From NCBI RefSeq assembly GCF_027942865.1, contig NC_134509.1, forward strand, positions 30,512,197 to 30,576,196: 64,000 nt of DNA, in the 5' to 3' direction. Positions 694-63,602 of the stretch are shown here, piece by piece. The translations under genes and the position numbers were made by a program. The number at the start of each line of letters is the position of its first letter. Position 1 is the stretch's first letter. The DNA comes from Odontesthes bonariensis (Eukaryota; Chordata; Actinopteri; Atheriniformes; Atherinopsidae). The notes under the pieces are model-generated. The model worked only from the letters and a program-made list of their open reading frames with translations, had not been told where the DNA came from and did not search any database.

Positions 694-3600
694 TTATTTT
701 CCGACCAAATCAGCCGAGACTTGAAAGGCCCCCTTCAACTGAAAGCTGGTGAGGGCGCCTGTGTGTAAAAGTTTTATACAGTCCTTCCTCCTTATTTACT
801 GATAAAATTACTGCTTTCTATCTGATAAACAATCACATCCTTTCTTCTATTGTACTTTTATACAATTGAATAATTATGACAAATACTAAAAAAAAGTATT
901 TGTTGTTTTTTTTTTTAAGTAAAAGTGTGCATGAAGACCTGTTTACAATGAGTTCAAACGAAGCTGAGCAGGACACAGCTCCTTCTACACAGCCTTCAAC
1001 AATTGAGGTAAATCTGAACGTCTGAGCACTCTGAGAGTTGAAAGGATTAGTCCATCAATTAATTACTTTATTTCTTAGTAAAATAAAAACGTATTTTTCC
1101 GCTACCTTTAAAGGGACATTCCACCAGTGGAGACATGAATATGTATTGAAAGTGGGCCATATATGTAGTAGAATAGTAGCATAAATTTCTAATTTGGTGC
1201 CTTCTTGACCGAGAAAAGGCAGAAAATGACTTTTTTGTGCTTGTGGATTGCAGACAACAATCCCCATAGTGCATTGCAATGCTCAAGATCCGCAGGCCAC
1301 TCCCCCGAGAGTGTACTAGCTCCACCCGACTCTACGCTACCTGGAAATCATGTCACACAATTTCTAGTGAAGAGTTAGTTTGCAAAATCATTAGTGAATT
1401 ACTCCTCGTTTGTGTTTCGAAATGGTGTGCACTTGCATGGTACCGGGATGTTCAGCCAGCACAAGGAAAATACACGGAGTAAGTTTTCATAGATTACCCA
1501 AAGAGTTGGACTTGTGCAAAAAGTGGCTACGGGCCATCAATAACCCGAAGTTCGGAGAGGACACGGCCATTGAAGCACTAAAAAATCTGACGGTGTGCAG
1601 TCTACATTTCAAGCCAGAAGACTTCGAACCCAACCCCTTAGGAGTGAAGAGACCCGCGCTTGTGAAAACCGCAATTCCGTCGATATTGCCAGATGATGTC
1701 GACGAACAGCCAGGAACTTCTGGAACTGCTAGCAGTGCTAAACGCATTTGCCTGGAGGTAAGGTTTTTTCTAACTCGACTCTAGCGGCAAGAAAGTGCCG
1801 GTAGGCTGTTAGACGAAATTGTCTAGACAAAACATTGATCACAAAGTGAGTGATGGCATTTGAGCCTAGCGTGCCACAGTATCTTGCATAACTGCAAGCT
1901 ATTTGTGCAATGAACATGCCACGTTAGCGTGTTAGCAAGAGTACTCCTTGACATAGTAACAAAGAAAACAAACTTACTTTACAGAAAGACGTCCATTTGG
2001 CCCTGTAGGCTTTGGCTGTCGTTTCCAGTTGACTTTAGGTATTCTAAAGTAGGTCTCCAGGACGCCACTATCCATATGAGGTGCGAAACTCGGGTGATCA
2101 GCTTCAGCCGCCTCCTGTTCCTCCATAGCCCTCAGCTGCTCGTCGCTATATTGTGGCTCAAAAAGATAGCCACGAACATCCGTTTCTACCATATCTTCTT
2201 CAAAATCCCAGTCCTCCGTATTGCATCCGTCTGAGTATTCGGTACCTTCGACCATGTTAGCTGCAGCTCTCTGCCAGTGACTTCAAAAGCACTGGCACTG
2301 ATCTGTGATAGGTCTGTTAGCGCATTAGGTCCAACCCCCTATGGGCGGTGTTGAAGGGTGGGAACTAGCGCTTGTAGTCTCAACTGAAATCCACCCCTCT
2401 TACTCTTCCTCCTGCAATGACGCAAAATGACGATTTTTGCATCATTGTAGGAGGAAGTGTAAAGAGGTGAATACGGATTTCTCCCGTCTCAGGGGGAAAT
2501 GAGAGAGTGTTGCATGACCATTCAAAAGTATGACTGGGTTTCTAACAATGCAAAGCCTAATGCAAATGGGTGGAGTGTCCCTTTAAGGGATGGTTCGGAG
2601 TAGATTCACCCTAGGGTAATTTGAACCGTGACATCCAGCCAAGTAGCCCACCCGAAGTTTTTCCGATCTTGGCCGAACATCAGCCGAGTTACTGAGTTAT
2701 CCCGAATAGCTTAGTACAAGCGCTAACGGAGCCTGGCAGTATCTCCAAAATTACCACACTAAAATCGCATGCCATGACACCAAACTTCTACAGTAGTATA
2801 AATATGGTCTGTACTCACAAAACGATGCATTTGGAAGTTTGTACATAGTCCAGGAGTTTATTATTATCAACACAAGCCTAATAGCTTCTCTGCTGCTAAA
2901 GCTGCGTTGACGTCACTTCCTTGATCTGGGACGAGCCCGTAAAAGTCCTCATCGAAACTCATAATATGCACAAGGAAAAGTGAATTCAGCGTCAGTATTG
3001 ATAACTAAAATCCTTGTCTAATTGATAGTAGGTAACATTTGAGATATATTTTAAGTGTTGCCTTGAAAATATAAGCCTTTATCACAATTCAGTGAATTTT
3101 TTTTTTTTATACTCTCGTCTGGAACTTTGTTGACGGAAACAACCGTGTACACGTGACTGAGGATAGCCAAACACGGTTACTTCAGGCTACTGCAGCGAAA
3201 GAAGAAGGCTGTTATTTGCTGCTACAGCGCGAGGTGAAAAGATAGGACAAGATGCCATACTCTTGTATCTATCCCGGCTGCGGACTAAAACGCAAACTGT
3301 TCCATCAAGAGAGCTTCCATGAGCTGCCGTATAGACACAATGACCAGGAACTTCTACAGCAGTGGATGGTTGTTCTGAATATGGACATCGCGACGCCGGT
3401 CGAGACGCTGAAGAAAAAGCGCTATCGTGTGTGTAGTCGACATTTCGATAAGGACGATTTCATTCATCCTAAAACTGCCAAGGAGTCTAAAAGGGTGCAC
3501 CGAGTAAGAGTACAGCTAAGAAGAAATGCCATTCCACGAGTGGGGCCACCGGCAACAGACACAGTGGAGGTAAGTTTTAGCAGCAGAGAAGCTATTAGGC

Positions 3601-4745: not shown

Positions 4746-5859
4746 AAGGTTCAAGTTAAACGCAGCGGATGAAGCAGCTGGACTTAAGTTCTGCTGCTTT
4801 TCTCTGGATTACAACGGAACCATATAAGTGCCTCATTTGCTGATGAATCCACACAAAGAGGAACCATTCCATGAGTCTTTGAGTGTGGTTACCTCGTTTC
4901 ATGATGGCTGTCTTAGTCATCACTTGTATACTAAGATCATGGAGGAGGATTCGTGCTGGCAGGTAAAGCAGTTACTTAAGTCACTGAGTGAATTAAAATT
5001 TCTCCCGCGTTTCTGGATTTGCTTTGATCTAAACAAGCTTTACTTCTGCCTGATGGTTAAGGAGTGTTTTTACAAAACTACGCTCATACGACATTGACAG
5101 ATTATTGTAAATGCAAAGAAAGCTTCCAGAAGAAAACAGACTATTTTGCCTCTCCCAGATGTTTCCTCCTTTTATGTAAGATTTTTTTCCTTGAATGTGT
5201 TTTTCATCCTTTTCTTTGTCCCAGTTAGCAACACAATGAATAAACTTTAAGCAGTTTTAATAGTTGCTTATGACTGATCATTTCCAGGTTAACAAACGAC
5301 TCCATCATCATCGTGTGTTGGGCTAAGGTGGCAGTGATTGTATTGACTGCAGTAGATTTCTCACACTTAAAGTGTGGTCCTCATTCTTAAAGACTTTCCC
5401 AATTCCCCGTCCTGCTTATGTACGAGTGTAGCAAAAGCTAGGGACGGTAGATTATTTGGATTAAGAGATTCTGAACAGATATGAATATTTTCATGGGCAC
5501 CCATTACCACCTGTGGAATGAATCTTATACATTTCACAATTTGATAATGATGTAAATGGAACCAGTCACATGAACCATGACCATTTAAAAATAAATTGAA
5601 TTTGGTTTCCAGATAATCTCTCTTTGGTGGTTGGAACAGCGTTCATCCCCTCATCCCGGCCTGTTCAGGCAGATGGCTGCTTTACCTGGTTCTGCTGGAG
5701 GGTTCTTCCTCCTCTAAAGGGAGTGGGATTTTATTTCCCTCCCAGTTAATGCCGAGTGCCTTCTCAAAAGGAAACGTTAGGTTTCTTTGTCAAGTAGTCT
5801 TGGTGAACTTTGTGCTGTATGAATAGAACTGTTTTAAGGCCAGCTACAACTTAACTTAA
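4746..5859. other. 3' UTR and flank of the zinc-knuckle gene, copy 1
   Basis: After the stop at 4745 no convincing exon was found. AATAAA at 5239-5244 is a likely poly(A) signal, repeated in copy 2 at 29735-29740. The rest is AT-rich flank shared with copy 2, including a stretch at about 5640-5800 with no recognised feature. Confidence 0.6.
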
Positions 5860-6302
5860 AGGGATAGTTCGCCTCTTTTGACATGAAGCTGTACGACATT
5901 CCATATTAGCAACATCATTTATGAACATTGACTTACCCCCCGCTGCGTCCTGTGAGCGGAGTTCCAGCTGAGTTTTGGAGTCCACGAAGCTAGTCCGGCT
6001 AGTTGGCTGGGGCTTGAAAAAATAAAGCGTTTTGCTTCTCAAAACAATATGCATTCAAAAGAGTAATACATTTGCATCAAAATCATTTTGCATGAAAAAG
6101 TCAGACCTCACTTCGCTTGGCGCTATTTTTGCCTCCCTTGATATCAATGCGTCCAATGTAAAACTGTGCAGACCGAAGAGCAGACCGAGCACTCCCCTGA
6201 TTACGAGCAGCAAACACCGTAACAGGTGCGGCTATCGCTAGGTGGCTAGGGAGTGCTCAGTCTGCTCTTCGGTCTGCATGTCAAAGGAGGCGAACTATCC
6301 CT
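5860..6302. mobile_element. 443-bp TTAA MITE, private to copy 1
   Basis: Flanked by TTAA at 5856-5859 and 6303-6306, with ends AGGGATAGTTCGCCTC and GAGGCGAACTATCCCT. A second, internal inverted repeat pairs the tract near 6171 (accgaagagcagaccgag) with one near 6249. Copy 2 reads straight through at about 30345 (caacttaacttcctgg), so this is an insertion after duplication. No coding exon was found in it. Confidence 0.88.
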
Positions 6303-9944: not shown

Positions 9945-10126
9945 CTAAGCATACACACACCACCAAGCTTTAGCCCACTAGAACAAATTGTTTAACTCTT
10001 GGACGCAAACAGCAGACTTGTAACTTTATAATTGCCACTTTGCAGCAGTTTGAACAGATCGTGAACAGTATGTTTTCTTATCACTTCTTCAGTTATTCTG
10101 TATGTCATTGGTTGTCTGGTTACCAG

Positions 10127-15010: not shown

Positions 15011-15013
15011 TTA

Positions 15014-18306: not shown

Positions 18307-18327
18307 AAGTGTCTGAATATATGCACC

Positions 18328-21683: not shown

Positions 21684-22965
21684 AGGACCATTTCGGTCGT
21701 CTACAACATCCAGCTGTATTGCCCAATCTACCCATGATTTAGCCATAGCAAAGACGCAAAAAAATGTCATCCGACCCTGACAGTGTTGCTTGCACGGAGA
21801 TTTCGGACTGACAACATAGCCATGGGGGCATGGATTTATATTGTGTTTTAAACGTCTTAACGTGCTCCAAAAATCACCCCAAAAATATGCAAAATCGACA
21901 GACACCTTACAACACTATACTGTAGTGTGAATGACCCAAAACGAGTGAAAAGGTGTTTAAAACATTGTGTAAGTGCTTGCAGCCACATACCGTTTTGTTT
22001 ACATCTCCGTCTTCCGGAAGTCCAAACAAGTCCATCCGTCGAGCAAGCGCATATCCCTCACGAAAACTTGAGTTTTGCCGACAGAAACGTATTCCAGCAT
22101 TTTATTTTTTCAATTCATACATTATGGACCATGTAAGATGTAAGGTCATGTGCCCATTAGCTGTACACTTGAAACTTGAATCCTAGCTTGTCTGCGCATG
22201 CGCATGATTCTTGCCGAGGCAGAGAGGAGGACCCTGTCATTCAGTGATGATCGAAGAGAGTGACTCCAGACAGCGTGAAAATGGTTCGAGTTTGTGCGAT
22301 GCCCAATTGTGGCAATCGAATGCGGAAATATAAGGGTCTGAGCTTTCACCGTTTGCCCCTCTACGAGCCCGAAATATTGCCTTTGTGGCTGGTAGTTCTC
22401 CAGCTTGACATGCAGACTCCGTTTGTAGAACTGCAATCAAAGGACTACCGAGTGTGTGGCGAACACGTCGACAACGATGACTTCTTTCCAACAACAAGTG
22501 AAACATGTCGACTTCGTGTGAAGAAAAATGCTGTTCCAAGACCTGTGGTAATATCATCTGCTAATTTATTTTTTCCGTCTTGGTTTGAGCTTGGAAGGCT
22601 TACAGATGTCATGCTAGCAGCTATGGTTTGAATAGGACAGCTAGTTGTGGCTGTGTGTTTCTTTCTATCTCGGCAACTTGTTAGCCTTCCCAGAGGAGAA
22701 TGTTCGTTGACCCATCGCCCCAACCCAACAGAAATGTGTCTGTGTTTTGTACTATCTGAAGATGGTGGATTTCGTTTTTATTATCTGAAATATGCCACTG
22801 CATAAAAAAAATGCGCGAACAGTTGGTCATTTGGGTACTATACGTAATGTTTATAGTTACCTATGACAAATAGCAGCTACTTTGAATTGTTTACGTGTCG
22901 TCCTCAACCCTGATTTAGTTAACGTCTAACCTCCTAGCCATACATTTTACTAAATGAAATGCATA
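21684..22965 (+). mobile_element. T6: TTAA element with THAP exon, right end missing
   Basis: TTAA at 21680-21683 is followed by AGGACCATTTCGG. The related repeat at 49015 reads past the same TTAA without this sequence, so it marks an insertion. A THAP exon lies inside. No matching right end was found before the T2 sequence of copy 2 begins at about 22966, so the right part was lost, possibly at the duplication breakpoint. From 22548 to 22965 nothing was recognised. Confidence 0.6.
22281..22547 (+). CDS. THAP-domain first exon in T6
   Basis: ATG at 22281 opens 89 codons to a gtaata donor, phase 0. Motifs are CAMPNC, SFHRLP, LWLVVLQLDMQTP, RVCGEH and KKNAVPRPV. The phenylalanine usual after the zinc-binding His is valine here. 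The sequence is clearly related to the THAP exon of T4 (both start MVR and share CGN-M-R, SFHRLPL and QLDM/HLDM), but the element ends differ. Confidence 0.8.
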
Positions 22966-24039
22966 CGCTGAATTCACTTTTCCTTGTGCATATTATGAGT
23001 TTCGATGAGGACTTTTACGGGCTCGTCCCAGATCAAGGAAGTGACGTCAACGCAGCTTTTGCAGCAGAGAAGCTATTAGGCTTGTGTTGATAATAATAAA
23101 CTCCTGGACTATGTACAAACTTCCAAATGCATGGTTTTGTGAGTACAGACCATATTTGTACTACTGTAGAAGTTTGGTGTCATGGCAAGGGATTTTTAGT
23201 GTGGTAATTTTGGAGATACTGCCAGGGTCCGTTAGCGCTTGTAGCCATTCGGGGTAACTCGGCAGATGTTCGGCCAAGATCGGAAAAACTTCGGCTGGGG
23301 CTGGATGTCACGGTTCAAATGACCCTAATCTACTCCGAACCATCCCTTTAATGTATGAGTACTTTTTATCTATTTTAAATCATTGTAAACAAACAAAACT
23401 ATTTGAAGAACTCACTTTACACTTTTTAAATAGTAATTGTGTGGTATTTATATACATTAAATAAAAGGAGAACTCCGGGGCATTTGAAACGCAATCCCAT
23501 TGCTAGAGGTGGTCAAATACTGACAGTAGGACACAGACTGGTGCAAATCGGCGCTCCCTGTGCGGCGATTGCGCTGTTTGCGCAGCCTGACATGCTAGCC
23601 AAATACGTGGTGGCCAAGGGGCAAATTCTAAACCTTCCACGTAAAACAACAACTTGCACACTGCAGAAACGTCACACCACTTTATAAACCATCCGACAAT
23701 AAAGTCACAAGCCTTACCATCAAAACTATATGCATGGTTCTCACATTACTGGCATGGGGACGTTACAAAACAACTTTATAAACAGCATGTCACTTACCTG
23801 TTGTTGGTATGCGCGCGCATGTGAAAGCCCAAAAGAGTCAATAGACGATACTCCCATATACGAAGCAATTATCTTCTCTAGAACAGCCATGATAAACTAT
23901 TTAAAACATTACAACAATATTACTGGGCATGAAACAACATGAAGTAATGCTAACCTAGCAGTATATGGTATTGTTGTTGCACCACAGATTCTATAATAGT
24001 ACAGATTCGCCTCTCACGGTGCATTTCCGGTTTCCAACG

Positions 24040-24785
24040 AGGTGATTTTGGTTGCAGTTCCACCCTCTTTCCACGTGGGGCGCTCAATTTTGGAGACCAG
24101 AATGAATGGAGTCCACTGGAGCTATACGCCCTAGCGTGCCCTTATCTCAAGATATAATTTTTTCTCTAGTAATTCGAATGTTGTGTTCAAAAGAGGATGT
24201 TTAGAAAATACCCATGGCTGAGTTTTAGATTTTTAGAGCCACTCATTTGCTTAAAAAAAAGGATTTGAAGTGTATATGACGTCATACATAGCTTATGACC
24301 GGAGATGCCGCTTTACGGCAACAATCCTGCTTGTTGTTGGTCTCAAAGGCAGCAGCGTTTTCAAGGAAGAGCTGTAGTAAGAGAGAATCTGTGGTAACAT
24401 CACAGATTCTTAGGCTGTGGTAACATAAGCGGAAAAAATCCATCTTAATTCTGTTGTTACTTGGTATGGAGCCAGCCGTCAAGCGGTGCCTCTGGTCGTA
24501 AGTCATTCTTTCGCCGGTCATTAGCACAATGCTAGCGCGTTGTGGACAACAAGAAGCCAACCTGTAAGAAATCAAAGGGATATATGTACTCGTTCAGTAG
24601 ATTTTTGACTTGAAACCCATGTTGATTTCTCAGAAACTACATTCAAATCTGAGCGCTCTTGAGGAGACTTAGGTGAAACTGACCATTTGTAGCATCTAGC
24701 TCTATAGGGCACCATTCATTCTGGTCTCCACCGACGCGCCCAGTGGAATTCTGGTGGAACTGCAGCCAAAAAGCCGGTACAATGG
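24040..24785. mobile_element. Unclassified inverted-repeat element nested in T4
   Basis: About 80-100 bp at each end pair in inverted orientation (ttggttgcagttccacc against ggtggaactgcagccaa, and ggagaccagaatgaatgg against its reverse complement). Exact ends and target duplication were not fixed. No coding exon was recognised. Confidence 0.55.
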
Positions 24786-24792
24786 GGCTTAA

Positions 24793-25444
24793 AGGACAAG
24801 ACCGTTTTTTTGACATTGGGCCCTTGATTTCACATTATAACATGATGTTCTACTCAACCCTGCTTGTTGTTGGTAATTTGGAGCTGTTCCGAAGATTTTC
24901 GAGAGGCGTCTGGCTGCTCTCTTGAGATATTCGGCCATGAAACGGTTTCCTATGGGCAACGTTATACAGGCACAAACTATGCTTTTTATAATTTATTAAT
25001 TACTGTACACTAGCACTGATAACGTGGAGGTGCGTCGCTTACTTAAAAAAATCCGGGTTACTGTAATTTTGATTTTTTGTCGTAAAGTGGGTGTTACTGA
25101 CGTCATCGTCGTGCTACTACCACAGACAGCCCACAGACCTGCTGCCTATTTATTCATTCGGCTAAAATTCAAAATTACAGTAACCCGGATTTTTTTAAGT
25201 AAGCGACGCACCTCCACGTTATCAGTGCTAGTGTACAGTAATTAATAAATTATAAACAGCGTAGTTTGTGCCTGTATAACGTTGCCCATAGGAAACCGTT
25301 TCATGGCCGAATATCTCAAGAGAGCAGCCGCCTCTCGAATATCTTCGGAACAGCTCCAAATTACCAACAACAAGCAGGGGTGAATAGAACATCATGTTAT
25401 AATATGAAATCAAGGGCCCAATGTAAAAAAAACGGTCTTGTCCT
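24793..25444. mobile_element. T3 short form: 652-bp near-palindromic MITE
   Basis: TTAA at 24789-24792 and 25445-25448 flank ends AGGACAAGACCG and CGGTCTTGTCCT. The two halves are reverse complements for about 280 bp each, with a short centre near 25085-25150 (gtgctactaccacagacagc). It is the deletion form of the THAP-bearing T3 in copy 3; a further end fragment is at 33165-33435. Confidence 0.9.
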
Positions 25445-25788
25445 TTAATAGTGAGTGGCAAGGCTGTTAGATATAATGGCTGTGGTTGCACTGATTTGAA
25501 AACGAATACAAGTCTCGTTCCGGTTGTGAAATCACGTGAGAGTTTCGTTGCATGGATCCGAGTGTTTCCCAATATAAATGTATATAAAGTTACAGAGGTG
25601 TAATTGGTCGGATTTGAGTTGATTAATGACATTTACAATTTTTATGGTACCACAAAATAATTGATATTGATCAATGCTTTCATTTCTGTGGATCTCACAA
25701 GTCTTGCGCTGAAGTCACGTGAGTTTAGTTGCAGGAAGTAGGAACTTCACCGGCAGCGAAGCAAAACGGGGGTTGGTAAAGCCACAAA

Positions 25789-27228
25789 ATGGTGCGGGAA
25801 TGCATTTTCCCACACTGTGGCAACAAAATGCGCAGAAATAGAGGCCTGAGCTTTCACCGGCTGCCTCTCAGGCACGGTGACAATGAGAAGCTGCGAATGT
25901 GGATGCTGGTGCTCCATCTCGACATGAATACTTCGCTGGACACCCTCCGAAGCAGAGACTACCGCGTCTGCAGCGAGCATTTCGTGGAGGACGATTTTAC
26001 CTCGTCAAGTGGCAGTCACAGATTCCTGAAGAGAAACGCTATTCCAAACGCTAAGAGCCTTGGGGACAACGCCATGGTAATGTCAAATGTTTATTGATCT
26101 TTGGGTGGGGAAGGCGATGATTGCAAGGTGCTTTTGTTTGCTATTTGACGTGTTCAGTAGGTGATTGTTAGTCAAGTCCTTAGACTGTATGATCATCGAA
26201 TAAAACCAAACTTTGTGCTCTATTTATAGCATTTTACAGCACAAGCAAAGTGAGTAACAATGCCTTCCAATTTGTAAAACACGTTAGGAGGTATGGTTTT
26301 TGGCTTGAGAATGGCTGTAAGTTGTTATCATGGGTGAAATATGTGGGAAATGTGTCGCAAAAAATATTTACACAAGAGAGAACTGAGATATCAGTAGGTT
26401 GTTGTGTAGCCCAGGGGTTCCCAAACTTTACCATGACAAGGCCCCCCATATACTGGTAGATTCCAGACACGGCCCCCTGCCCTGACATGGGTTGTTCACC
26501 CCCTTTCACAACCATAGTCTGTGTGTCAGTGCCCCACTGGTATATATAAAAATAACAGTAATAGTAGTAATGCTCAGAGATGCTCAGATGCAATATATTA
26601 TTGTAATGATGAGGATATTTTAGCTTTTTTGTTTATTTTGTTATACATTAATTATTATTTTTTTGTTTTTGTTTTGCCATACTTTTCCTTCCAAATTGCT
26701 GCGGCCCCCCTAGCACCCCTTCGCGGCCCCCACTTTGAAAACCACTGGTGTAGCCCACTGTCTTGTCACTCCATCCTCTTTTTTGTTTCTCATCTTTAGA
26801 GGAGTGGTGAGTTTCCCACTGTTTCAGGACCAGAATTAGCTGCATGCCCACAGTCTACACCAATGAAGGCTACACACGGGCCCAGGACATCAGGAATATC
26901 CAACTTCCAAGACAGTCTGACTCTACTTCTCACAAGTCCGGAACATTCCACTACACAGACTAGGCGATCGCTTTCTGGGATGTACCTAGCAAGACCTCCT
27001 TCTTGCAAGCAAACAGTGGTAAGTCTGCCATGGTTTCATCCCGTTTCCAAACCCATAATGTGTAAATGGACTCATTGTCATTGATCTCATAAATAAGCGT
27101 GTGTGCATTTTATATTCAAGGATCCCAGTGCCACAACATCAACACAGGGTTTGATGGTCCCCAAGTCCCCAAGACTTGTTTGCCAACATTTGGTTACTTA
27201 CTTTTCTCTCAATAAAAATTGTGTGTAA
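25789..27228 (+). CDS. Three-exon THAP gene inside T4
   Basis: Exon 1 (25789-26076, 96 codons) has CIFPHC, SFHRLP, MWMLVLHLDMNT, RVCSEHF and KRNAIP, a complete THAP domain, and ends with a gtaatg donor. Exon 2 (26800-27018, 73 codons) follows a pyrimidine-rich acceptor and reads a Ser/Thr/Pro-rich linker ending SCKQTV before gtaagt. Exon 3 starts at 27121 and reaches a stop at 27228, overlapping an AATAAA at 27211-27216. All junctions are phase 0. The linker is like that after THAP domains in fish transposase-derived proteins; no catalytic part is seen. A hAT lies in the first intron. Confidence 0.65.
26412..26747. mobile_element. 336-bp hAT MITE
   Basis: A perfect 8-bp duplication GTGTAGCC (26404-26411, 26748-26755) flanks ends CAGGGGTTCCCAAACTT and GAAAACCACTG. 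This is a Charlie-type hAT terminus. It has G/C-rich CGGCCCCC motifs near both ends and no ORF of its own. Confidence 0.9.
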
Positions 27229-28666
27229 AAATGTGTGCAATTTAATTTATGTGTTTCCATTATTGAAGTATTATTTTAAAGATAATGTGTCTTCAGTTTT
27301 ACACGCAGAGAGACTGAACATTTGGTTCCTTATTTTTTTCTAAAACAGCTTCGTCTTAGTTGGGTTGGAAGGTGAGCGTTTGTGAACAACTATCCTTAGA
27401 TCTCTCAAGATTCTCAATTCTTTTAGTTGTCACTAACATCTGGACATGTTTTGTTTAAAACTATTTCATTACAGCCTTAGCTTTACACAGCTTTGTTTCT
27501 TGCTGAAAGATAAAGCATTGTCCCCATCTCAGATATTTTGCAGACTCCAACAGGTACTGCACTGCTCTTGTGATGTGCCATTTTATTTTTTTGCATGTAC
27601 TTGTGGGGTGCTATTGTTACTTCCTTAGTTTTAATTTTTTTTAAATGCCCAATAAAATGGCAAAAACAATTGATTGACTATACTGAACGTAATGCTCTAA
27701 AAATAATACATACATAATGTAAAAGAAAAAAAGTATCTTGCTTGGCTGAGGATTTCCTATTGTTATGCAGTGTTCCATTTTCATAGCGCTTGTAACTGCC
27801 ATGAACTCATCTGATTGATTGCGTCCATCCCCACTTTTTGGGCCTGTAGAACTAGTGTAACCAAAGATTTTCCTAATTGACCGTCTCTGGTGTAACATTC
27901 AGCTTCAGCGCTGAACTCTCGCGTGAATTCGGAACGAGACTTGCATTCGCTTTCAAATCAATGCAACAATACCATATACTGCTTGGTTAGCATTACTACA
28001 TGTTGTTACATGGCCAGTAATATTGTTGTAATGTTTTAAATACTTGAACGCAGTTTTTCTAGAGAAGATAATTGCTTCGTATATGGGAGTATCGTCCATT
28101 GACTCTTTTGGGCTTTCACATGCGCGCATACCAACAACAGGTAAGTGACGGGCTGTTTATAAAGTTGTTTTGTAACGTCCCCATGCCAGTAATGTGAGAA
28201 CCATGCATATGGTTTTGATGGTAAGGCTTGTGATTTTATTGTCGGATGGTTTATAAAGTGGTGTGACGTTTCTGCAGTGTGCAAGTTGTTGTTTTACGTG
28301 GAAAGTTTAGAATTTGCCCCTTGGCCACCACGTATTTGGCTAGCATGACAGGCTGCGCAAACAGCACAATCGCCGCACAGGGAGCGCCGATTTGCACCAG
28401 TCTGTGTCCTACTGTCAGTATTTGACAACCTCTAGCAATGGGATTGCGTTTCAAATGCCCCGGAGTGGTCCTTTAAATAAAGTAAATTTAGGCTGTTTGA
28501 TTTTATGTTAGAAAACAGAGCAGTTTTTGTTTTCTCTCATGCATATTAAAGTGATGTAATAAGCTCAACATTTCCACCCCAGAAATCATTATTTTTAATT
28601 ATAAATGTTAAACAGCAGCCTGTTTCCACTCCACTTTCTGATGGGTTTCTGTTCCTCGTCTTTAAG

Positions 28667-48999: not shown

Positions 49000-49015
49000 C
49001 TTCCAAACGGATGCT

Positions 49016-52815: not shown

Positions 52816-55800
52816 TTATTTTCCGACCAAATCAGCCGAGACTTGAAAGGCCCCCTTCAACTGAAAGCTGGTGAGGGCGCCTGTGTGTAAAAGTTTTATA
52901 CAGTCCTTCCTCCTTATTTACTGATAAAATTACTGCTTTCTATCTGATAAACAATCACATCTTTTCTTCTATTGTACTTTTATACAATTGAATAATTATG
53001 ACAAATACTAAAAAAAAGTATATATATATTTTTTTTTAAGTAAAAGTGTGCATGAAGACCTGTTTACAATGAGTTCAAACGAAGCTGAGCAGGACACAGC
53101 TCCTTCTACACAGCCTTCAACAATTGAGGTAAATCTGAACGTCTGAGCACTCTGAGAGTTGAAAGGATTAGTCCATCAGTTAATTACTTTATTTCTTAGT
53201 AAAATAAAAACGTATTTTTCCGCTACCTTTAAAGGACAAGACCGTTTTTTTTTTACATTGGGCCCTTGATTTCACATTATAACATGATGTTCTACTCACC
53301 CCTGCTTGTTGTTGGTCATTTGGAGCTGTTCCGAAGATATTCGGCCATGAAACGGTTTCCTATGGGCAATGTTATACAGGCACAAACTATGCTGTTTATA
53401 ATTTATTAATTACTGTACACTAGCACTGATAACGTGGAGGTGCGTCGCTTACTTCAAAACACCCGGGTTACTGTAATTTTGAAATTTGTCGTAAAGTGGG
53501 TGTTACTGACGTCATCATCGTGCGCGGGCTGGAGTGACAGCCCACAGACCTGCTTGTAGCAACCCAACGCGAGCAGTGGTGTCAAAAGTACACACATTTG
53601 TTACTTAAGTAGAAGTATAGATACTGCAGTTTAAAAACATTCTGGTAAAAGTTGAAGTATCAACTTGACCTCTTTACTCAAGTAAAAGTGAAAAAGTATG
53701 TGCTCCAAAACCTATTTAAAGTATAAAAGTATAAAGTAACCTTTAAATAAAAAAAAATTCAATTTTTTTTTATTAAAAACCCACACAAAAAGGTAGATGC
53801 CACTATATGAATTGCAAGCTTAATTTTAAAACTGATTAGTTCTACATGTGGGTCTTGGGTGTGCAGAGTTTGCATTGCATTTTCCACGAGTCATTTTTGC
53901 ACCCGACTATTTCGAAAAATTCTTTGAGATAGGGCCATGGATGAGGAAGGTCTTGTTGGTCTTCGTCTCCATCTCCCGATACGCTCTCGCCATCTTTTTC
54001 TGAATCCGATATTGTGGCGTGGCATACACTTTGCGCAGCTTCGCGTTTGCAGTTTGTAGAACACCTGCTTGCTTCTGACGAATGACGATTTCCTTGTGTG
54101 TCAGCACAAATTTGACAAATAGCCTAACCGATGAGTGTTTGCGTTATATGATCCATCAAATTACACTCGTTCTCACTAGGTGTGGATGGCGCACATGACG
54201 TGAAATACATAAACATTAAACTGAAGCCAAGAGTTAAAAAAAAAACTAAAAAAAAACTGAAGCCAAGAGTTAAAAAAAAAAAAAAAAAAACTGAAGCCAA
54301 GAGTAACGAGGCTGTTTGTTTTGAAAATGTAAGGAATAGAAAGTACAGATACTTCTGTGAAAATGTAATGAGTAGAAGTCAGAAGTAGGCAGAAAAATAA
54401 GTAATGGAGTAAAGTACAGATACCTAAAAAGTGTACTTAAGTACAGTAACGAAGTACAAATACTTCGTTACTTGACACCTCTGAACGCGAGTGCTTACCG
54501 GATGTGAGTACTCCGGATATCCGGGCGAGTATTTATATGCCCAGATGTGCTTTTTGAACATCACGAATGCTTTGCGCTACCACTGCTACCCGATGTGAAT
54601 CACGCTGTAATCTCACGGTTGACACGAAACAATAACAATATAAGATTAGTACGACGCCGTTTGGTGCTATTGTCTACCATTAGCCTAGCTGTTCTCTGCC
54701 GTGAATGATTCTTCATTACCACTACACACGCGCTGTCAAGCAGACTGGACTGAAAGTCTTATAAACACCATTGTTTTAAAACTTTAGGATTACACTAATC
54801 TATGTTGGGAGTCAAGCACAAGACCAACCAAGAGCTGAATGCGCGTAGTCAATATTGAAATTATAGTAGTAAAAAAAAAACAAAAAAAACATTTTCATTT
54901 CAAAATTAAGGGGAAATAAACAGTAGACTAACTGGTTTTATACGATTACTTTTGCATACATTGGTGAATGACAAAAAAAAAATATATATATACACACACA
55001 CACACTCACTCTCTGTTCCAGCCACTCCATCCAAGGGCAGACAGTGGAGCACGTGGAAGTTTTTAGGTACCTGGGCACCGTCTAATGTCTGTGAGAAAGA
55101 CCGGAGCCACACCAAAGACAATTTTCTGTTTTTGTGCCACCTGACATTTTTGGGGACAATCTGTCTTTACTTCTGTATGCTACAAAAAAAAAAAAATTAA
55201 CGCTATTTGAAATTCCACTAACCGTTAAGTATCAACAAGTGTCTAACTTATGAAAACCTGGTGCATGTGTAACCAGGGGATGTTACACAGGTCAAAACTT
55301 TGACTACGCCAGTCTCATTAAGGGTGAGGCATCACTAGGGCTGCTGTACACAAACAATTTCCCCTGCAGGTTTGAAAGAACTTGAGGACACAGTTGTTGC
55401 AAAACATATACTTTCCTTTATTTTCTTCTTCTTGTATAAAACATTCTAAATGTGCAGAGTTGCAGAGAGGGCAGGCGAGTAATAAAAGCACAGTGCTACT
55501 CTGATATTAACATGTATAGTACACATTGCGAACTTGAAGCACAACAAACAAAGAAAACCAACACAGAAGTTAGTCCACTGCTATGCAGTAAGATACATTG
55601 AGACAGTCACTAGGTTCAACCTTACTCTGTCAATTGTGCCAGAAGTATATTATATGCAAACCGGAAAAACACTGGCAATTAGATTCAGACAAGGTATAAA
55701 ATAAAATCCACAAGAGTCAGAAGGCCTAGACCAAAAACAAGTGGTATATAGTCATAAGGAACAGGGTGTTCAGATGCAGCCCCTGGTGGCAACAGGGGTG

Positions 55801-58800
55801 AGGAAAAACTCCCTTTTCACTTGATTTGATATTTTTCTTGGGATAAAATCTCAGTATAGTCTGAGGAAAAAAAACAAACCCATGAAGTCAGGAAGAAACC
55901 TCAGGCAGAGACCGACGGCCACCAAGGGGAGCCCCCTGCCAGGGCTGGTTACGAACAGGTTAAAGGAAGAGGGAGGTATTTAATTTAATAATAAATAATC
56001 TTTTCAGAAGTCACTTGCCAGGGCATCCTGAAAAGGACCTGCGTCTTTGGCCCATTTGTCACCCAACCAGGCGTATCCATGGTCTTGCTTCAGGGAACAG
56101 GAATTGTATCCATGGTGGTCATGATAGACTGACAGCCTCTGAGTAGTACATAGTAGTAGACATAATACAATAGTCATTGTAGGCCTGGCTAAAACACACC
56201 TATTCTGATCATCACCTATTGTCTTTAAGAACTGACCTTCTCGTTCACCGCTTTCATTTTATTGACCGCACTGTCAATGTCCTCCTCTGGATTGCCCAAT
56301 TCAAAGTCTGTCAGGGGACAGGCGTTATGCACCTCGGGCAACACTGGATGGCGGTGGAACATCAGATAGAAAGGTGTATGCCTTGTGGATGCCTAGACAC
56401 ATAGCACATTTACATTAGGATTATAAATAGACAACAGGAAACAGAAAAAAGCTAGAACGAATAGCCACCTGTGAAGATGTGTTGATGCCATAGATGACAG
56501 CATCGAGGTGCAGATCCCAGTCATCATGAGCATCGTTCACATATTTCCTTAAGGCACGCTTGATGTTTTGGTTAGTCCGCTCATCCTTCACATTAATAAA
56601 AAGTACAAATTAAAATGCAATAAATTATTTTTTTAAAGCATAAATTCCATGCACGGTATGTACAAAAAAAAAAAAAAACATATTTTTTATTACCTGGCCA
56701 TTCGTCTGGGGGTGATAGGCACTGGAGACCGAATGCTTAATGTGGAGCATGTCAAAAATTCTCTCATTTAACTGTGGACAAATTATGTAAAAAAGATTAT
56801 GGTTCCATGAATGATGAATGATTTCATTCATGGAGAAGTATGATGAGCCACAAGTTTGTAAATGGGCCAGAATGACAACAACTGAACTGGATTGAAGGCA
56901 GTTCTACTGATGTAAAAAGCTTCTCACCTTGTTTACAAACTCCTTCCCTTGGTCAGTTATTATTCTTTGGACCATACCGAACGTGTACATGATTTTTACA
57001 AGTGCTCGGCATACCTCCACCGCTGTCTTCGAAGGAAGAGGGGCGGCAGCGACCCACTTACTGTACAGGTCGGTCATGGACATAATGTACTTATGTCCTC
57101 TTTCCGTTTCCTTCAGTGGACCAACAAGGTCCAGCCCGATGACGGTCCAGGGATCTGTAACCTGACAAAAATGCCTCATATTTATGTCACCTACATTTTG
57201 CAGATGGATACATAAAAGTAACACACATTGTGTATGTTTTTTCTTAAAAGAATGCAAACCGCCTGCTTGAATTGAATAAAAACTCGCTACCTTTATGGGA
57301 TGCAGGGCTGGGGCATCCGTTTGGATGGGGTCATTGAGCTGACACTTGTGGCAGCATCTCACCTTAGACAAATAATAACAACACATAGGAGACTTCTTTC
57401 CACTCACATTTTTACTGCGTGTGACGACAAAATCAGACACAATGAGGAACTAGGCATACAAGATGATATGAATAAAATTCTGAATAAAAGTAGGCTTCTT
57501 ACTTACCCAGCTCTCGACGTCCTTTGCCTGGCCTTCCCAGAAATAGCCAGCAATAGTTTTGTTTCTAGTACCCCTTACACCTCTGTGGTTGCCAGACCCA
57601 GGGAGATTGTGGCACTCGTTAAGGACGGCAGTTTTTTCCGCGTCACTGGTCACCACCAGCCGCATGTACTGCCGCTTTGGTCCGACATAAAATATGCGAC
57701 GATCTATTAAAACAAGAAAAATTAAAGGCCTAACGAATTTAGACTTTTGGATAAGTCCTGGTTAAGTCCTGATCGCGAATCATCTCCTTGGCTCGCTGCC
57801 AAGTGCTAGTCAGCATCAAGTGAATTCCACACTGACATTCTGACAAAACAACAGAGTAAAACAACAAAAAAGTCTTGATCGCACATCATCTCCTTGGCTC
57901 GCTGTCGTGAACGCTGCCTTTATAAGTGCTAGTCAGCATCAAGCGACAGTTCTGACAAACATTGACATTCTGACAAAACAGAGTAAATTAAACAACAAAA
58001 TGTAATAACATGATTAATGACAGTAATAAATGCGCCTCCGCTTCCGAGCAAGCGGATAGGTAGGCTTATAATTGCTGACATAAATTAAGTTTATTATTTA
58101 TATCTCGAGTAAGATTGAAAAAAATGTCAAGTCGGGAATGTGATGAAATTGGGCTTACCTTTCAGTACAAAGTTTTTCGATGCGCGGCGAACCTTCCATC
58201 TTTCCTCCTTCCCCCATAGGGGCAAAACTTGCCCCGTCTTTAAAAACGTTTTTACGTTCTCATAAAACTGAGAGCCTTCCATCTTCTGTCAGGAGTCAGA
58301 CCTGTCAGGAGTCTGACCACATATTCTCTCCTCCTACTCAACTAGGTTTGTGCTACTCAAATTAAGTAGTTGAAGTAAAACTGTCGTAAATACGCGCCCG
58401 GATATCCGGAATACGCGCCCGGATATCCGGAGTACTCACATCGGGTTAGCGCCTCTGGTAAGCACTCACGTCGGGTCGCTACACTGCTGCCTTATTATTC
58501 ATTCGGGTAGCTAACCTGAATTCGCACAGCAACTTCAGAAGAAGCCGAGAGAAGACTAGTGAAAATCCTATTTGGTTACAATGGGTCGAGTGTGCGCATA
58601 TCCAGGATGCGAAAATAAAATGTCAACTTGGACGAAGTACAGTTTTCACCGGCTTCCTCTCCGTAATCGTGACATTTTGAAGCTCTGGCTCGTTGCCTTG
58701 AAGATGGACCCGAACATCACCGTTCCACGGTTACGACGCTTGGACCATCGGGTGTGCAGTGCGCATTTCTCCCCAGAGGCCTTCAATCCTCTAAGGGAAA

Positions 58801-61800
58801 AGAAAGAGGGACAGAAGTTTCAACACCAGCATATAAAAAAGAATGCTGTGCCGATGGCCGCGGAGGAGCCCACACAGAAAACGGAGGTAAGATGGTCTTA
58901 CCTGTTTGAATGTGTAGACGTGCTCATTTTGATGGGAGCTAGCACTCGCACTTAGATCAGTGCAGTGGCCTGAACTAAACCCACAAAGCTTGAATGTAGA
59001 ACTTACCTCCGCATCCGAATACTCTGGCTCAAATCGATATGGTCCAAATGCTCCAAATGACCAACAACAAGCAGGGGTGAGTAGAACATCATGTTATAAT
59101 GTGAAATCAAGGGCCCAATGTCAAAAAAACGGTCTTGTCCTTTAAGGGATGGTTCGGAGTAGATTCACCTTCTACAGTAGTATAAATATGGTCTGTACTC
59201 ACAAAACGATGCATTTGGAAGTTTGTACATAGTCCAGGAGTTTATTTTTATCAACACAAGCCTAATAGCTTCTCTGCTGCTAAAGCTGCGTCGACATCAC
59301 TTCCTTGATCTGGGACGAGCCCGTAAAGGTCCTCATCGAAACTCATAATATGCACAAGGAAAAGTGAAATCCTTGTCTAATTGATAGTAGGTAACATTTG
59401 AAATATATTTTAAGTGTTGCCTTGAAAATATAAGCCTTTATCGCAATTCAGTGAATTTTTTTTTTTTTTATACTCTCGTCTGGAACTTTGTTGACGGAAA
59501 CAACCGTGTACACGTGACTGAGGATAGCCAAACACGGTTACTTCGGGCTACTGCAGCGAAAGAAGAAGACAGTTATTTGCTGCTACAGCGCGAGGTGAAA
59601 AGATAGGACAAGATGCCATACTCTTGTATCTATCCCGGCTGCGGACTAAAACGCAAACTGTTCCATCAAGAGAGCTTCCATGAGCTGCCGTATAGACACA
59701 ATGACCAGGAACTTCTACAGCAGTGGATGGTTGTTCTGAATATGGACATCGCGACGCCGGTCGAGACGCTGAAGAAAAAGCGCTATCGTGTGTGTAGTCG
59801 ACATTTCGATAAGGACGATTTCATTCATCCTAAAACTGCCAAGGAGTCTAAAAGGGTGCACCGAGTAAGAGTACAGCTAAGAAGAAATGCCATTCCACGA
59901 GTGGGGCCACCGGCAGACACAGTGGAGGTAAGTTTTAGCAGCAGAGAAGCTATTAGGCTTGTGTTGATTATTATAAACTCCTGGACTATGTACAAACTTC
60001 CAAATGCATCGTTTGGTGAGTACAGACCATATTTGTACTACTGTAGAAGTTTGGTGTCATGGCAAGGGATTTTTAGTGTGGTAATTTTGGAGATACTGCC
60101 AGGCTCCGTTAGCGCTTATACTAAGCTATAAGCTATTCTAGCCTGATTAACATAGACTTTCAAATCTCTTCGAGATTCTGGTCTGACCAAGACCATAACG
60201 AATACGATTCGAAATGGCCTGGTCAACCCGCCTCCCTCGGGTTGCTACTGGTTGTGGCCAGAAAAGGCTGTGCCTAAGCTCAAGCCAATCACACCACTCT
60301 TTCCTCTGACGTATGATTTAGCTACCAGCTGGGCTAATTGGTAGATTAAACTCTTACCAAAGCCAGTAGGGAGCAAGCCAGGCGAAAACGTCTTTCCTGT
60401 CAAGAAACGATTCAAGGGCTGTTCTTTGCTCGATTTTAAACAAGAATCTCCCGTCGAACACTTTCATTACAGCATCTACAGCAGTGTCAAAAGCTTGATG
60501 CTGCTCCATGTTGATATTGAATGAAGCGCTTCCGTGTACAATCCATGGGTTGAGTGGCAGTTCAACCACGTCACTACCTTGAACCCGCCTTGGTTGGCGC
60601 TGCTCAAAGTTGATTGCTTCCCGACAAAGTGGGTGGAGTTCCCATTTTTTCGGGAACTCGAATCCACCTGAATGAGCAGTTGGCCTGAGTAAGTGTAGCA
60701 GAGCCGAAGGTGTTGCGTCACTGCGAGGGCGGAGCCTGGGTAAAGCTATTCGGGATAACTCGGTAACTCAGCTGATGTTCGGCCAAGATCGGAAAAACTT
60801 CGGGTGGGCTACTTGGCTGGATGTCACGGTTCAAATGACCCTAGGGTGAATCTACTCTGAACCATCCCTTTAATGTATGAGTACTTTTTATCCATTTTAA
60901 ATCATTGTAAACAAACAAAACTATTTGAAGAACGTCTCAAATTACACTTTTTAAAGGGATACGCCACCCCCAGGCCAAATTAAGTGTATCCCCGCATTCC
61001 AGAGACATAAATAAGTGTGTGGGAGCGTTTTCCTGGCGACCCAGGCATTGTCCGAATCTCACAGCACTGACCACTGCTTGGTTTCGCGTAATATCTTCAT
61101 GCTAGCGTCGCCGATCGAAATATTTCGCCCAACGTGAATTAATTTACTTGATTTACCTTCTAATTACTGTGTGAGTGGTGTACTTTCACATCGAGTGCAA
61201 ATGACTGTGTAAATCAACACGGAAGGCTTGGGTGCCGTTTACACATACCCGGGTATTTTGAAAAACGAAGACCTTTCCCTTCGTTTGTGCCTTTCGTTTA
61301 CACACAAACGGAGTTTTTTCCTCCGAAAACGAAGCTAAAAAAAAACTCCGGCAAAAGTGGAGATTTTTTAAAAACTCCGTTTAGCGTTTGTGTGTAAACT
61401 GGTTGAAAGACGAAAACGGAGTTTTCAGAATGGAATGCGGAGTTGTCGTCATAGTACAGAGCCCCGCCCCTATCCACCATAGTGGCAGGATAACGCCATT
61501 CATTGTTTATCTGGCAAGCATGGAGGTACTAGCAGCATTTATTTTGTTGAGAGCTATACTCGCTTGTGTGATTTTGAAAATTACACTCCTACAAAGTATT
61601 GAACAACAAAGGCGCATTACGGCGCGGAGGGCAACAATTGCGGAGCTTCTGTTGGCAGACAGAGCCTGGCCATACCACCGCCAGCGACGGCGATTCTGGA
61701 TTAGACCCGGACGGACTGCTTTATGGTGGGAAAATTTTGAAAATGGCTTTGTTGTCCCGGAGGAATGGAGGGAAAATTTCAGGATGTCACGATTTTCACT

Positions 61801-63602
61801 CCTTTCCCTATCAGAACTGCTACGCCCGCACATCCAGGGTGAGAGTACTCACATGCGCGCTTCTGTTGATGTTGTGAAGAAAGTTGCCTGTCAGCGGTTC
61901 TCTATTAGGCTTCTGATTGGCTTGTGTGGAATTCTCATTGTTCTAACATTGCCACCGTCAGGCTTGGCGTAATTTAACAGCTCCTGATAGCGTATTTCTC
62001 CGGATCAATGTAGACGGGGTTTTTTTAAAAAACGGGGCTGTGTGCACGGTTTTTTTTTTTTTTGAAAACGAAGGTTAGAAAATATGCGTTTTTCAAAATA
62101 CCCGGGTATGTGTAAACGGCGCCTTGGTTTGCTCATGTCGGTTTGGGAACTAGTTTCCGGTGCAGACAACACAGCCGACGCACACTCCCCGCTACGTCAT
62201 TGGGAATCCCCACCCCAGACTTCCTCAAACAAACCAGCGTGAAGCAGCCAGGGACAACCCAGACAACCGTGGCTAGCTAGCTAGAGTATTGGTGTGGTTT
62301 GAATCAGTGTGGTTACTACGGTAGTTGTTTGATTTCACTGAGAAAAATAGTGAATACGTGCATAGCAAGGGGCTGCGAGAACATGCAGAAGAGACACCAA
62401 AAGACAATGTTCCACAGAATTCCGAAGGATGAGCAAGGAAGAAGACTTTGGCTGGCTGCCCTCGGAATTCCTGAGACAACACCGGGTTTGCGAGGAGCAT
62501 TTCAAGCCAGAAGACTATGACCAAAAAATGGCCCACGCTTCGCAAAGGATGGTGCTAAGACTGAAACATACAGCTGTCCCATCTGTGTTCGAAACAGAGG
62601 TTGAGCGGAGTAATATTTCGATCGGCGACGCAAGCATGGAGGTATTACGCGAAACCAAGCAGTGGTCAGTGCTGTGAGATTCGGACAATGCCTGGGTCGC
62701 CAGGAAAACGCTCCCACACACTTATTTATGTCTCGGGAATGCGGGGATACACTTAATTTGGCCTGGGGGTGGCGTATCCCTTTAAATAGTAATTGTGTGG
62801 TATTTATATACATTAAATAAAGTAAATTTAGGCTGTTTGATTTTATGTTAGAAAACAGAGCAGTTTTTGTTTTCTCTCATACATATTAAAGTGATGTAAT
62901 AAGCTCAACATTTCCACCCCAGAAATCATTATTTTTAATTATAAATGTTAAACAGCAGCCTGTTTCCACTCCACTTTCTGATGGGTTTCTGTTCCTCGTC
63001 TTTAAGGAGCTCCAGAAAAAGAACGCCACTTGTCAAAGATTACCACGCCAAGAAGAGCAGAGAGAGTCAGAAAACAAAGAAAATAGAGGTGAGTCAACCT
63101 CACACTAGTCCCACTCTGGCAAAAAGAGGCGACTCGCCTACAGGAAAAGTTACTTTTGAAAGTAACTGTTGGAAATGGTTTCACACAGTTCAAGCAGATG
63201 AGGATGAAGAATCCAACACCTCACTGAGCGTGGGTGATGGACACTACATGGTGGATTTAGGAAGGTACGTGCATGTAAGTCCTACGATCTTTAACATATA
63301 ACCTCGATTTGCACAATATTTCCTCCGTTCCTGACAGATTTTTCTCCTTCAGCTCCTCGGAGTTGATCGTCGATGAAGAGTGCATCCTGGAGCTCTTCAA
63401 GAAATGCCGGAAATGCAACCGACAGTGCACAGTCAGAAAAAATGTCACTGGACTAAAGCTCGTCGTTAATCAGACGTGCTGCTTCTGTCAGCATCACTTT
63501 CGATGGACCAACCTGCCAGACGAGGACTATGACAAAGACGATAGTGACTCCCAGATCAACGGGCAGAATGTGGCGATGTCGCCAAGCAGCAATACAAGTT
63601 GA
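52816..63602 (+). CDS. Zinc-knuckle gene, exons a-e, copy 3
   Basis: Exons a 52816-52870, b 53041-53128, c 63007-63088, d 63198-63264 and e 63338-63602. All splice sites and phases match copy 1. Exon c has a 9-bp in-frame deletion; exon d has one Phe-to-Ser change; exon e is unchanged at the protein level. The b-c intron is about 9.9 kb because of T3, T2 and T5, which place two intact THAP exons and one broken one between b and c. The lack of frame damage fits either a recent duplication or some constraint. Confidence 0.6.
53574..54483. mobile_element. 910-bp hAT MITE in the Ginger terminal repeat
   Basis: A perfect 8-bp duplication AACGCGAG (53566-53573, 54484-54491) flanks ends CAGTGGTGTCAAAAGTAC and TTACTTGACACCTCTG. 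This terminus and the aagtagaagtatagatac motif are typical of a very common fish hAT MITE. An internal tract repeats ctgaagccaagagttaaaaa three times. Confidence 0.92.
54992..55085 (+). repeat. CA run and a LINE RT scrap
   Basis: After a (TA)(CA) run, about 55030-55085 reads GQTVEHVEVFRYLGTV, a motif near the end of RT in L2/RTE-type LINEs. Only this scrap is present. Confidence 0.4.
55380..56224. other. 3' region of the Ginger element, with repeat-like sequence
   Basis: No exon downstream of the transposase stop was recognised. The stretch ggcaacaggggtgaggaaaaactcccttttc...ggaagaaacctcaggcag (about 55785-55905) resembles a common dispersed repeat in fish genomes (recall). Confidence 0.35.
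56225..58282 (-). CDS. Ginger integrase-like transposase, seven exons
   Basis: Exons: 58159-58282 (ATG start), 57507-57703, 57291-57362, 56928-57161, 56694-56771, 56469-56585, 56225-56392 (TAA). All introns have GT..AG; the first is phase 1 and the rest phase 0. The product is about 329 residues without a stop. It has an HHCC finger (ECHNLPGSGNH then CCHKC), then the core: Asp in IGLDLVGPL, Asp in IITDQGKEF and Glu in DERTNQ. Counted across the junctions, the last two are 35 residues apart (DD35E). It ends with TPFYLMFHRHPVLPEV, a motif I associate with GIN2 proteins. It would cut and join the element's ends in the nucleus. Intact termini make it a candidate autonomous element. Confidence 0.8.
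58581..58886 (+). CDS. THAP-domain first exon in T3
   Basis: ATG at 58581 opens 102 codons to a gtaaga donor, phase 0. Motifs are CAYPGC, SFHRLPL, KLWLVALKMDPNI, RVCSAHF, EAFNP and KKNAVPMA. It lies in the b-c intron of the zinc-knuckle gene in copy 3, same strand. Confidence 0.83.
59613..59927 (+). CDS. THAP-domain first exon in T2, copy 3
   Basis: 105 codons, identical in protein to 3252-3569 except for one residue lost near the gtaagt donor. Start, zinc ligands and donor are intact. Confidence 0.85.
60139..60742 (-). mobile_element. 604-bp unclassified insertion with 9-bp duplication
   Basis: AAGCTATTC at 60130-60138 and 60743-60751 flanks it; the uninterrupted T2 arm has one copy. The ends begin tagcctgattaac and end ggagcctgggta with little inverted symmetry. 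The minus strand from about 60490 reads FLFKIEQRTALESFLDRKDVFAW, like the Q-motif region before the Walker A of RecQ-type helicase ORFs found in fish transposons; it stops before the ATP-binding loop. Class unknown. Confidence 0.55.
61231..62123 (+). mobile_element. PIF/Harbinger fragment nested in T5
   Basis: TTG (61228-61230, 62124-62126) flanks ends GGTGCCGTTTACACATACCC and its near complement. It carries the first part of a Harbinger transposase. Confidence 0.8.
61388..61972 (+). CDS. PIF/Harbinger transposase, N-terminal part
   Basis: An open frame of up to 194 codons. The recognisable part is RRRFWIRPGRTALWW, VVPEEWRENFRMSRFSLLSL, LRPHIQGESTHMRASVDV and VKKVACQRFS, the HTH-bearing N-terminus of PIF/Harbinger nucleases. 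The DDE catalytic part is missing. The true start is probably the ATG at 61521 (MEVLAAFILL). A non-autonomous remnant. Confidence 0.75.
   Translation: MCVNWLKDENGVFRMECGVVVIVQSPAPIHHSGRITPFIVYLASMEVLAAFILLRAILACVILKITLLQSIEQQRRITARRATIAELLLADRAWPYHRQRRRFWIRPGRTALWWENFENGFVVPEEWRENFRMSRFSLLSLSELLRPHIQGESTHMRASVDVVKKVACQRFSIRLLIGLCGILIVLTLPPSGLA
62347..62641 (+). pseudogene. Broken THAP exon in T5
   Basis: The expected ATG is ATA at 62347. The first half (CIARGCEN, MFHRIPKDEQ, LWLAALGIP) and the second half (RVCEEHFKPEDYD, LKHTAVPSVF) lie in different frames. About 20-25 codons of the usual middle are missing near 62480. Possible donors are at 62600 (gttgag) and 62642 (gtatta). Confidence 0.75.

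Follow-up and report, generated by a model that had tools for sequence, protein, structure and literature searches.

Why do exons encoding THAP domains, carried by TTAA transposons of several families, stand together in one neighborhood of the Odontesthes bonariensis genome, and what becomes of them there? We addressed this question in a stretch of 64,000 nucleotides, referred to below as the window, for which an earlier note made from the letters alone had described seven THAP exons in six families of TTAA elements. Six-frame motif searches and Pfam bore out that description, all seven exons lying on the plus strand. Those at 1422, 3252, 22281, 25789, 58581, and 59613 match Pfam PF05485 above its curated cut-off, and the broken exon at 62347, which has lost its ATG (now ATA) and its frame, matches in two pieces, one above the cut-off (62435-62605) and one just below it (62350-62433). 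The elements and their exons are as follows, with the evidence in parentheses.

1112..2585, + strand: E1, TTAA element AGGGACATTCC, set in a host TTAA at the left edge of E2 (ends, TTAA)
1422..1757, + strand: E1 THAP exon, phase-0 donor GTAAGG (Pfam; identical to residues 1-112 of P0065)
2582..3836, + strand: E2, TTAA element GGGATGGTTCGG with long TIRs (ends, TTAA)
3252..3569, + strand: E2 THAP exon of copy 1, donor GTAAGT (Pfam)
21684..22964, + strand: E3, TTAA element AGGACCATTTCGG, left end only, right border approximate (left flank identical to the native exon as far as TTAA)
22281..22547, + strand: E3 THAP exon, predicted donor GTAATA (Pfam)
22965..23351, - strand: inverted E2 fragment without the THAP exon (self-comparison)
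23464..28474, + strand: E4, element AGGAGAACTCC, derived by internal deletion from a THAP transposase element (ends; longer copy L063)
25789..26076, + strand: E4 THAP exon 1 (Pfam; exact splicing)
26800..27018, + strand: E4 exon 2, the kept second transposase exon (exact P0002; 94.5% to L063)
53229..59148, + strand: E5, TTAA element AGGACAAGACC, long, with other repeats inside (ends, TTAA)
58581..58886, + strand: E5 THAP exon, donor GTAAGA (exact P0003)
59139..60873, + strand: second copy of E2, in host copy 3, with a further insertion inside (self-comparison)
59613..59927, + strand: E2 THAP exon of copy 3 (exact P0001)
60950..62785, + strand: E6, TTAA element AGGGATACGCC (ends, TTAA)
62347..62605, + strand: E6 THAP exon, decayed (Pfam pieces)

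The elements had also been said to differ at their ends and all to use TTAA. The six families do differ at their ends, which stand next to TTAA. E1, E2, E5, and E6 have TTAA on both sides; the left target site of E4 carries 4 extra bases, and E3 shows its left end only, no second match to that end having been found, and its inner part adjoins the inverted E2 fragment. AG or GG stands beside the TTAA (5'-RR termini), together with similar inverted ends, in E1, E2, E4, E5, and E6. The five intact THAP types are 31 to 52% identical to each other and are scattered over the THAP tree, of whose 25 inner branches only 5 have good support. The possibility that the seven exons represent seven independent insertions was rejected, E2 being common to host copies: the exons at 3252 and 59613 both belong to E2 and were probably copied with the host segment described below, so that seven exons correspond to six families and about six insertions. 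Further pieces of the E5 family, up to 99.6% alike, lie at 24788-25448, 33158-33434, and 53229-53554, and a motif search found no THAP motif in them.

A first scan of the 945-Mb genome turned up 1545 THAP candidates, of which 150 were scored, and this corresponds to ~0.1 per 64 kb as a rough lower bound. At this density the probability of six independent THAPs in 64 kb is ~2e-9, and at ten times the density (one per window) it is 6e-4, both values being after the fact, as the window was picked for its cluster. The sense orientation is shared by 7/7 exons and by 6/6 families (two-sided p=0.03 for the families).

The tripled zinc-ribbon gene

What the earlier note had missed is that the THAP exons lie toward the 5' side of a tripled zinc-ribbon gene, to whose exons several of them are joined in annotated isoforms. 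Self-comparison showed that the window is made up of tandem copies of one segment, namely host copy 1 (1-1114 plus 3836-10053), host copy 2 (23351-23464 plus 28473-34390), and host copy 3 (52146-53235 plus 60873-60955 plus 62781-64000). Beyond the insertions, on their downstream side, the longer matching blocks of the host copies are 93 to 98.5% alike. Copy 2 has kept an extra upstream piece (20986-21683) that matches L011, the DNA left of the window, and window-like DNA extends into L011 on the left and up to L012:6349 on the right. A small plus-strand zinc-ribbon gene is present three times in tandem in the O. bonariensis window, and a DNA query made of host exons 2 to 4 found 3 places in the 945-Mb genome, all in the array, a search that diverged relatives would escape. 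The host exons are listed below.

L011:9071-9110, + strand: host start exon (MLNAQ..), copy 1 (exact splicing of P0004)
694-748 and 920-1007, + strand: native 5' exons of copy 1 (VIFRPNQ..ESC and KSVHEDLF..PSTIE) in the region 692..1008 (exact P0004 splicing)
4141-4231, 4332-4407, and 4496-4742 plus stop (to 4745), + strand: exons 2-4 of host copy 1, zinc ribbon in exon 4 (exact splicing)
28667-28757, 28858-28933, and 29022-29268 plus stop (to 29271), + strand: exons 2-4 of host copy 2 (exact splicing)
49011-49050, + strand: host native start exon MLNAQSLCLYLIK (MLNAQ..), copy 3
63007-63088, 63189-63264, and 63353-63599 plus stop (to 63602), + strand: exons 2-4 of host copy 3 (exact splicing)

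Second copies of the 5' exons at 694-748 and 920-1007 lie at 52813-52876 and 53037-53133, and no counterparts of these two exons were found in host copy 2.

Pfam searches gave no name for the host zinc ribbon. HHalign comparison of a profile of 15 orthologues with 9 Kolobok-type proteins, some of them truncated, matched the ribbon of host exon 4 to that of Kolobok-type transposases (probability 97.8, E 6.7e-13, 26% identity over 65 columns), in which the matching ribbon stands behind the THAP domain. An AF2 model of the fusion protein P0001 (see below), built from 24 sequences and with a mean pLDDT of 66 and a pTM of 0.33, contains a confident THAP domain (~1-73) and zinc ribbon (~165-215) joined by a disordered linker. 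Foldseek searches with this model placed the zinc ribbons of ZPR1, NrdR, and polymerase subunits nearest, none at E<=0.001, and a sequence search of the PDB returned two matches at E 0.29 only and none at 0.01.

Orthologues in other fishes have exons 2 to 4 in common and differ in their starts. The host-type C terminus was present in 79 of the 115 proteins compared, five of which are from O. bonariensis, four of these five with THAP. The 74 entries from outside O. bonariensis include isoforms, clusters, and unnamed contigs, some perhaps missing the true 5' end, and THAP is absent from 72 of them; the THAP domains of the two carriers, Sebastes P0043 and Archocentrus P0060, are only 26 to 32% like those of the window. 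With THAP in 6/79 host-type proteins, four of them from O. bonariensis, the proposal that the gene is THAP bearing across fishes was rejected.

Annotated fusions and the history of the insertions

In each of the six intact THAP exons the distance from ATG to GT donor is a multiple of 3, giving phase 0 (the E3 donor is predicted), and an in-frame stop lies 2 to 10 codons upstream of the ATG. Host exon 2 likewise starts in phase 0, and the E2 THAP exon was therefore joined to exons 2 to 4 and the chimera used as a search query. The top match of this query, which was made before the annotation had been seen, was P0001 (PAE49_004488 isoform 1; 97% over 100%), the query consisting of copy 1 letters and P0001 belonging to copy 3; further PAE49 isoforms followed. 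Five annotated isoforms, four of them element started and one native, were exactly reproduced by splicing genome DNA. Letter for letter and with GT/AG boundaries, P0001 is the E2 THAP exon plus host copy 3, P0003 the E5 THAP exon plus host copy 3, and P0002 exons 1 and 2 of E4 plus host copy 2. P0065, composed of the E1 THAP exon and host copy 1, is exact with an alternative exon-3 donor that extends exon 3 by 10 bases, so that the frame is shifted and the zinc ribbon is lost. The native isoform of copy 1, P0004, is exact as L011:9071-9110 plus exons 694-748 and 920-1007 plus the exons from 4141 onward.

At the level of annotation, zinc-ribbon fusions start from the THAP exons of E2, E5, and E4, a fusion with a frame-shifted end starts from that of E1, and alternative starts are used on common downstream exons both in copy 3 (P0001/P0003) and in copy 1 (P0065/P0004). 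The four element-started isoforms agree, at that level, with the earlier expectation that such an array would supply several DNA-binding domains to one locus. The E3 THAP exon, though open, appeared in no cluster representative of the chimera protein search, and a separate E2 isoform of host copy 1 was not seen among annotated proteins. The PAE49 names have the form used by NCBI evidence-based pipelines, which may point to RNA support. The locus tags, 4484 for copy 2, 4486 for copy 1, and 4488 for copy 3, follow an order unlike that of the copies in the assembly. An arrangement in which the THAP exons are internal and read from upstream host exons was unsupported, the isoforms starting at the THAP ATG with an in-frame stop before it; an acceptor between this stop and the ATG, allowing splicing into the THAP exon, is possible.

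Copies 1 and 3 both contain E2, and copy 2 retains an inverted remnant of it, so E2 is probably older than the duplication. E1 in copy 1 and E5 in copy 3 occupy the identical host TTAA, directly left of E2, and their sites have a common flank, GCTACCTTTAA, and a common junction, TTTAAGGGATGG. The site of E6 is empty in copies 1 and 2, and that of E4 is empty in copies 1 and 3. E3 interrupts the native start exon in copy 2 (ATGC-TTAA); this exon reads GGATGCTTAATGCTCAG in copies 1 and 3 and GGATGCTTAA followed by E3 in copy 2. As this start exon is broken and the next two native exons were not found, the starts of copy 2 are, as found, only element borne, and its annotated fusion starts in E4.

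Probable exon capture and its alternatives

We consider it probable that one tripled zinc-ribbon gene has repeatedly captured the THAP first exons of transposable elements as alternative starts. On this account the gene, which is small and closes with a Kolobok-type zinc ribbon, has been tripled in tandem in O. bonariensis, and TTAA elements of the Kolobok type have repeatedly landed upstream of the second common exon. With each intact element came an ATG, a THAP exon, and a splice donor in phase 0. The joining of this donor to the phase-0 host exon 2 creates alternative first coding exons that encode THAP-linker-zinc-ribbon proteins with differing THAP domains; in copy 2, one such element interrupts the native start exon. 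The insertions, the exons, their phases, and the exact fit to annotated isoforms can be read directly from the sequence. Transcription would proceed from the elements' own promoters, and the resulting proteins would be made and would bind DNA. Capture may have been made easy because the gene and the donors have an intron phase in common, both being apparently of Kolobok descent. The best-supported conclusion is that host-transposase fusion has apparently been repeated at one gene, as judged from annotated isoforms.

In our judgment belief and doubt are evenly balanced on whether the fusions are spliced but useless, the promoters and donors of young elements trapping the next acceptor and yielding neutral by-products. 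Of the 14 full-length copies of the E1 exon found in the genome, the window's included, 8 are open, so that openness alone means little; the other full-length exons are 93 to 99% identical to the window's (40 of 65 candidates were scored). Also in keeping with neutrality, host copies 1 and 3 differ about equally at coding sites (2/413) and other sites (5/~775), and one annotated isoform, P0065, is truncated. Neutral by-products would not lead one to expect six families all alike in orientation and phase, a copy 2 whose native start exon is broken and for which only element-borne starts were found, or an E4 exon that is open only in the window among 4 full copies, the other three having one common break. 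Of six full-length E2 exons found, the two in the window among them, five are open. The E2 exon argues against neutral by-products in another respect: between host copies 1 and 3 it has no substitution since the duplication (0/315 exon sites versus 17/814 noncoding sites; p=0.0037), one 3-bp in-frame difference apart. The unchanged tract extends past the exon on both sides, and gene conversion is therefore possible. The dN/dS ratios were confined to the E2 family, the THAP domains being too far apart across all seven (31-52% identity). Comparison with the C29 copy gave 4 replacement and 0 silent changes, which speaks against selection, and comparison with two C28 copies gave ratios of replacement to silent proportions of 0.40 and 0.29, which may reflect life as a transposon. 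For selection on a captured THAP domain the sequences give one weak signal (p=0.004).

Pure deletion bias seems to us rather unlikely to explain the array. It would hold that internal deletions spare the ends of elements, that the neighborhood is coincidental, and that the isoforms are chains built by a gene predictor. Deletion is evident in E4. A longer E4-like copy at L063 (C14) contains a THAP exon with a broken frame, exon 2 (94.5%), and transposase exons that are 54 to 68% identical, in pieces, to P0090, a protein whose PF20700 match falls below the cut-off (those of P0088 and P0102 lie above it). Window positions 25670-27172 and 27174-27733 match L063 on both sides of a 4.4-kb stretch with these transposase exons, which makes the window E4 an internal-deletion derivative; the earlier statement that promoter-proximal exons were kept and the catalytic part lost holds for this element. 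In E2, the right repeat begins just after the donor. Such deletions account for exons in elements, not for six sense, in-phase families before one gene, and they leave several annotated isoforms unexplained.

The C14 copies of the E4 family show the left end, and their right end was not seen. Three of these copies lie within 56 kb (G000:C14:4591615-4647533) and share one THAP-exon break, L063 surrounding one of them. That the parents would be THAP transposons, as had been proposed, is supported where it was testable, for E4 by similarity through L063 and for E1 through a protein of Merluccius that carries the PF20700 transposase domain and a THAP 84% identical to that of E1. The E1 THAP is also 99% identical to a truncated O. 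bonariensis protein, P0085, and the best relatives of the E3, E4, and E5 THAPs, in other fishes, are 62 to 64% identical. The E2 THAP is 92 to 93% identical to Eleginops P0006 and to O. bonariensis P0086 (PAE49_001064), in which an E2-like THAP is joined to C2H2 fingers. Two E2-family THAP exons lie 29 kb apart in G000:C28:4931057-4960467, and one of them matches the start of P0086 (98%), so that a further gene may also have acquired an E2 THAP. In Engraulis encrasicolus, P0087 has an E1-like THAP (92%) and P0089 an E2-like THAP (77%). Both proteins are members of a related zinc-ribbon/C2H2 family, and 12 of 40 proteins with the ribbon of that family have a THAP-like start, which suggests, from sequence comparison, parallel THAP swaps on this family.

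The P-element KP-type repressor is a THAP protein without the catalytic part. The window fusions resemble it in carrying THAP without a catalytic part and differ from it in that their C-terminal part comes from the host gene. We think it unlikely that they would act in this way, binding the ends of their own families and keeping them quiet, as the earlier note had suggested. P0001 does have THAP and no transposase domain in Pfam, the relatives of E1 are recent, and other fishes have short proteins made up of THAP and zinc ribbon (P0005, P0006, and P0014); two of the families, however, have few full exon copies (E2 6, E4 4), so that there may be little to repress. Quite improbable, in our estimation, is a wider reading in which the Kolobok-derived zinc-ribbon gene, having inherited its intron phase and exon logic from a common transposase ancestor, would be a standing acceptor for upstream Kolobok first exons, each newly active family donating a DNA-binding domain that recognizes its own ends and family-specific THAP-zinc-ribbon regulators or repressors accumulating.

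Known systems and other repeats

UGT1A and the clustered protocadherins have several start exons and common downstream exons. Host copies 1 and 3 are like them in having alternative start exons (at annotation level) and unlike them in that their start exons arrived by transposition instead of tandem duplication. Host-transposase fusion genes formed by exon capture were reportedly described by Cosby et al. in 2021. As described in one report, the DNA-binding domain of a transposase that has landed close to a host gene becomes spliced to the exons of that gene (PMC12062965). In the isoforms annotated here, too, a transposon exon is followed in frame by host exons. They differ from known host-transposase fusions in that the start exons, interchangeable on one gene, come from several unrelated families and in that the host gene carries a Kolobok-type zinc ribbon and is tripled. 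That transposons, including Kolobok, passed THAP domains to host genomes more than once has been inferred from old and scattered genes (PMC2203978), whereas here there are several young insertions at one gene. Kolobok elements are described in two reports as having a TTAA target, RR termini, THAP plus a zinc-binding module, and multiple domestications (PMC6004289, PMC9587614). The window elements share the TTAA, the RR termini, and THAP, and the fusions have a zinc-binding module. The frog Kolobok domestications are transposase genes (PMC6004289, PMC9587614), whereas the sequences joined to another gene here are first exons of deletion derivatives.

The literature consulted on Kolobok, THAP capture, and transposase fusions, mostly at the level of titles and abstract openings, reports no such array and describes transposase exon capture one event at a time. 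A gene like this one, with young tandem copies, empty sites beside the insertions, and start exons annotated from four transposon families, would allow domain capture to be followed live and would let selection for captured domains, their use as repressors, or mere tolerance of them be tested directly.

Several other features of the window deserve mention. Nested in E6 is a unit with 37-bp inverted ends (61231-62123) that holds a 194-aa open frame, for which Pfam gave no match and which presumably resembles the start of a Harbinger nuclease. Near the right end of E1, the minus strand (1974-2255) contains a 93-aa reading frame, again with no Pfam match, which we take to resemble the start of KolX/P2X7-tail proteins; if this likeness is right, the first exons of two convergent genes both survive in E1. 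Such proteins are encoded by some Kolobok elements (PMC9587614). Between host copies 1 and 2, an LTR-type retroelement on the minus strand (11546-18357) shows frames for reverse transcriptase and RNase H and a protease-like frame, and 39006-45677 is occupied by two adjacent copies of a reverse-transcriptase/endonuclease element that are 95% identical, the frame of the second being interrupted.
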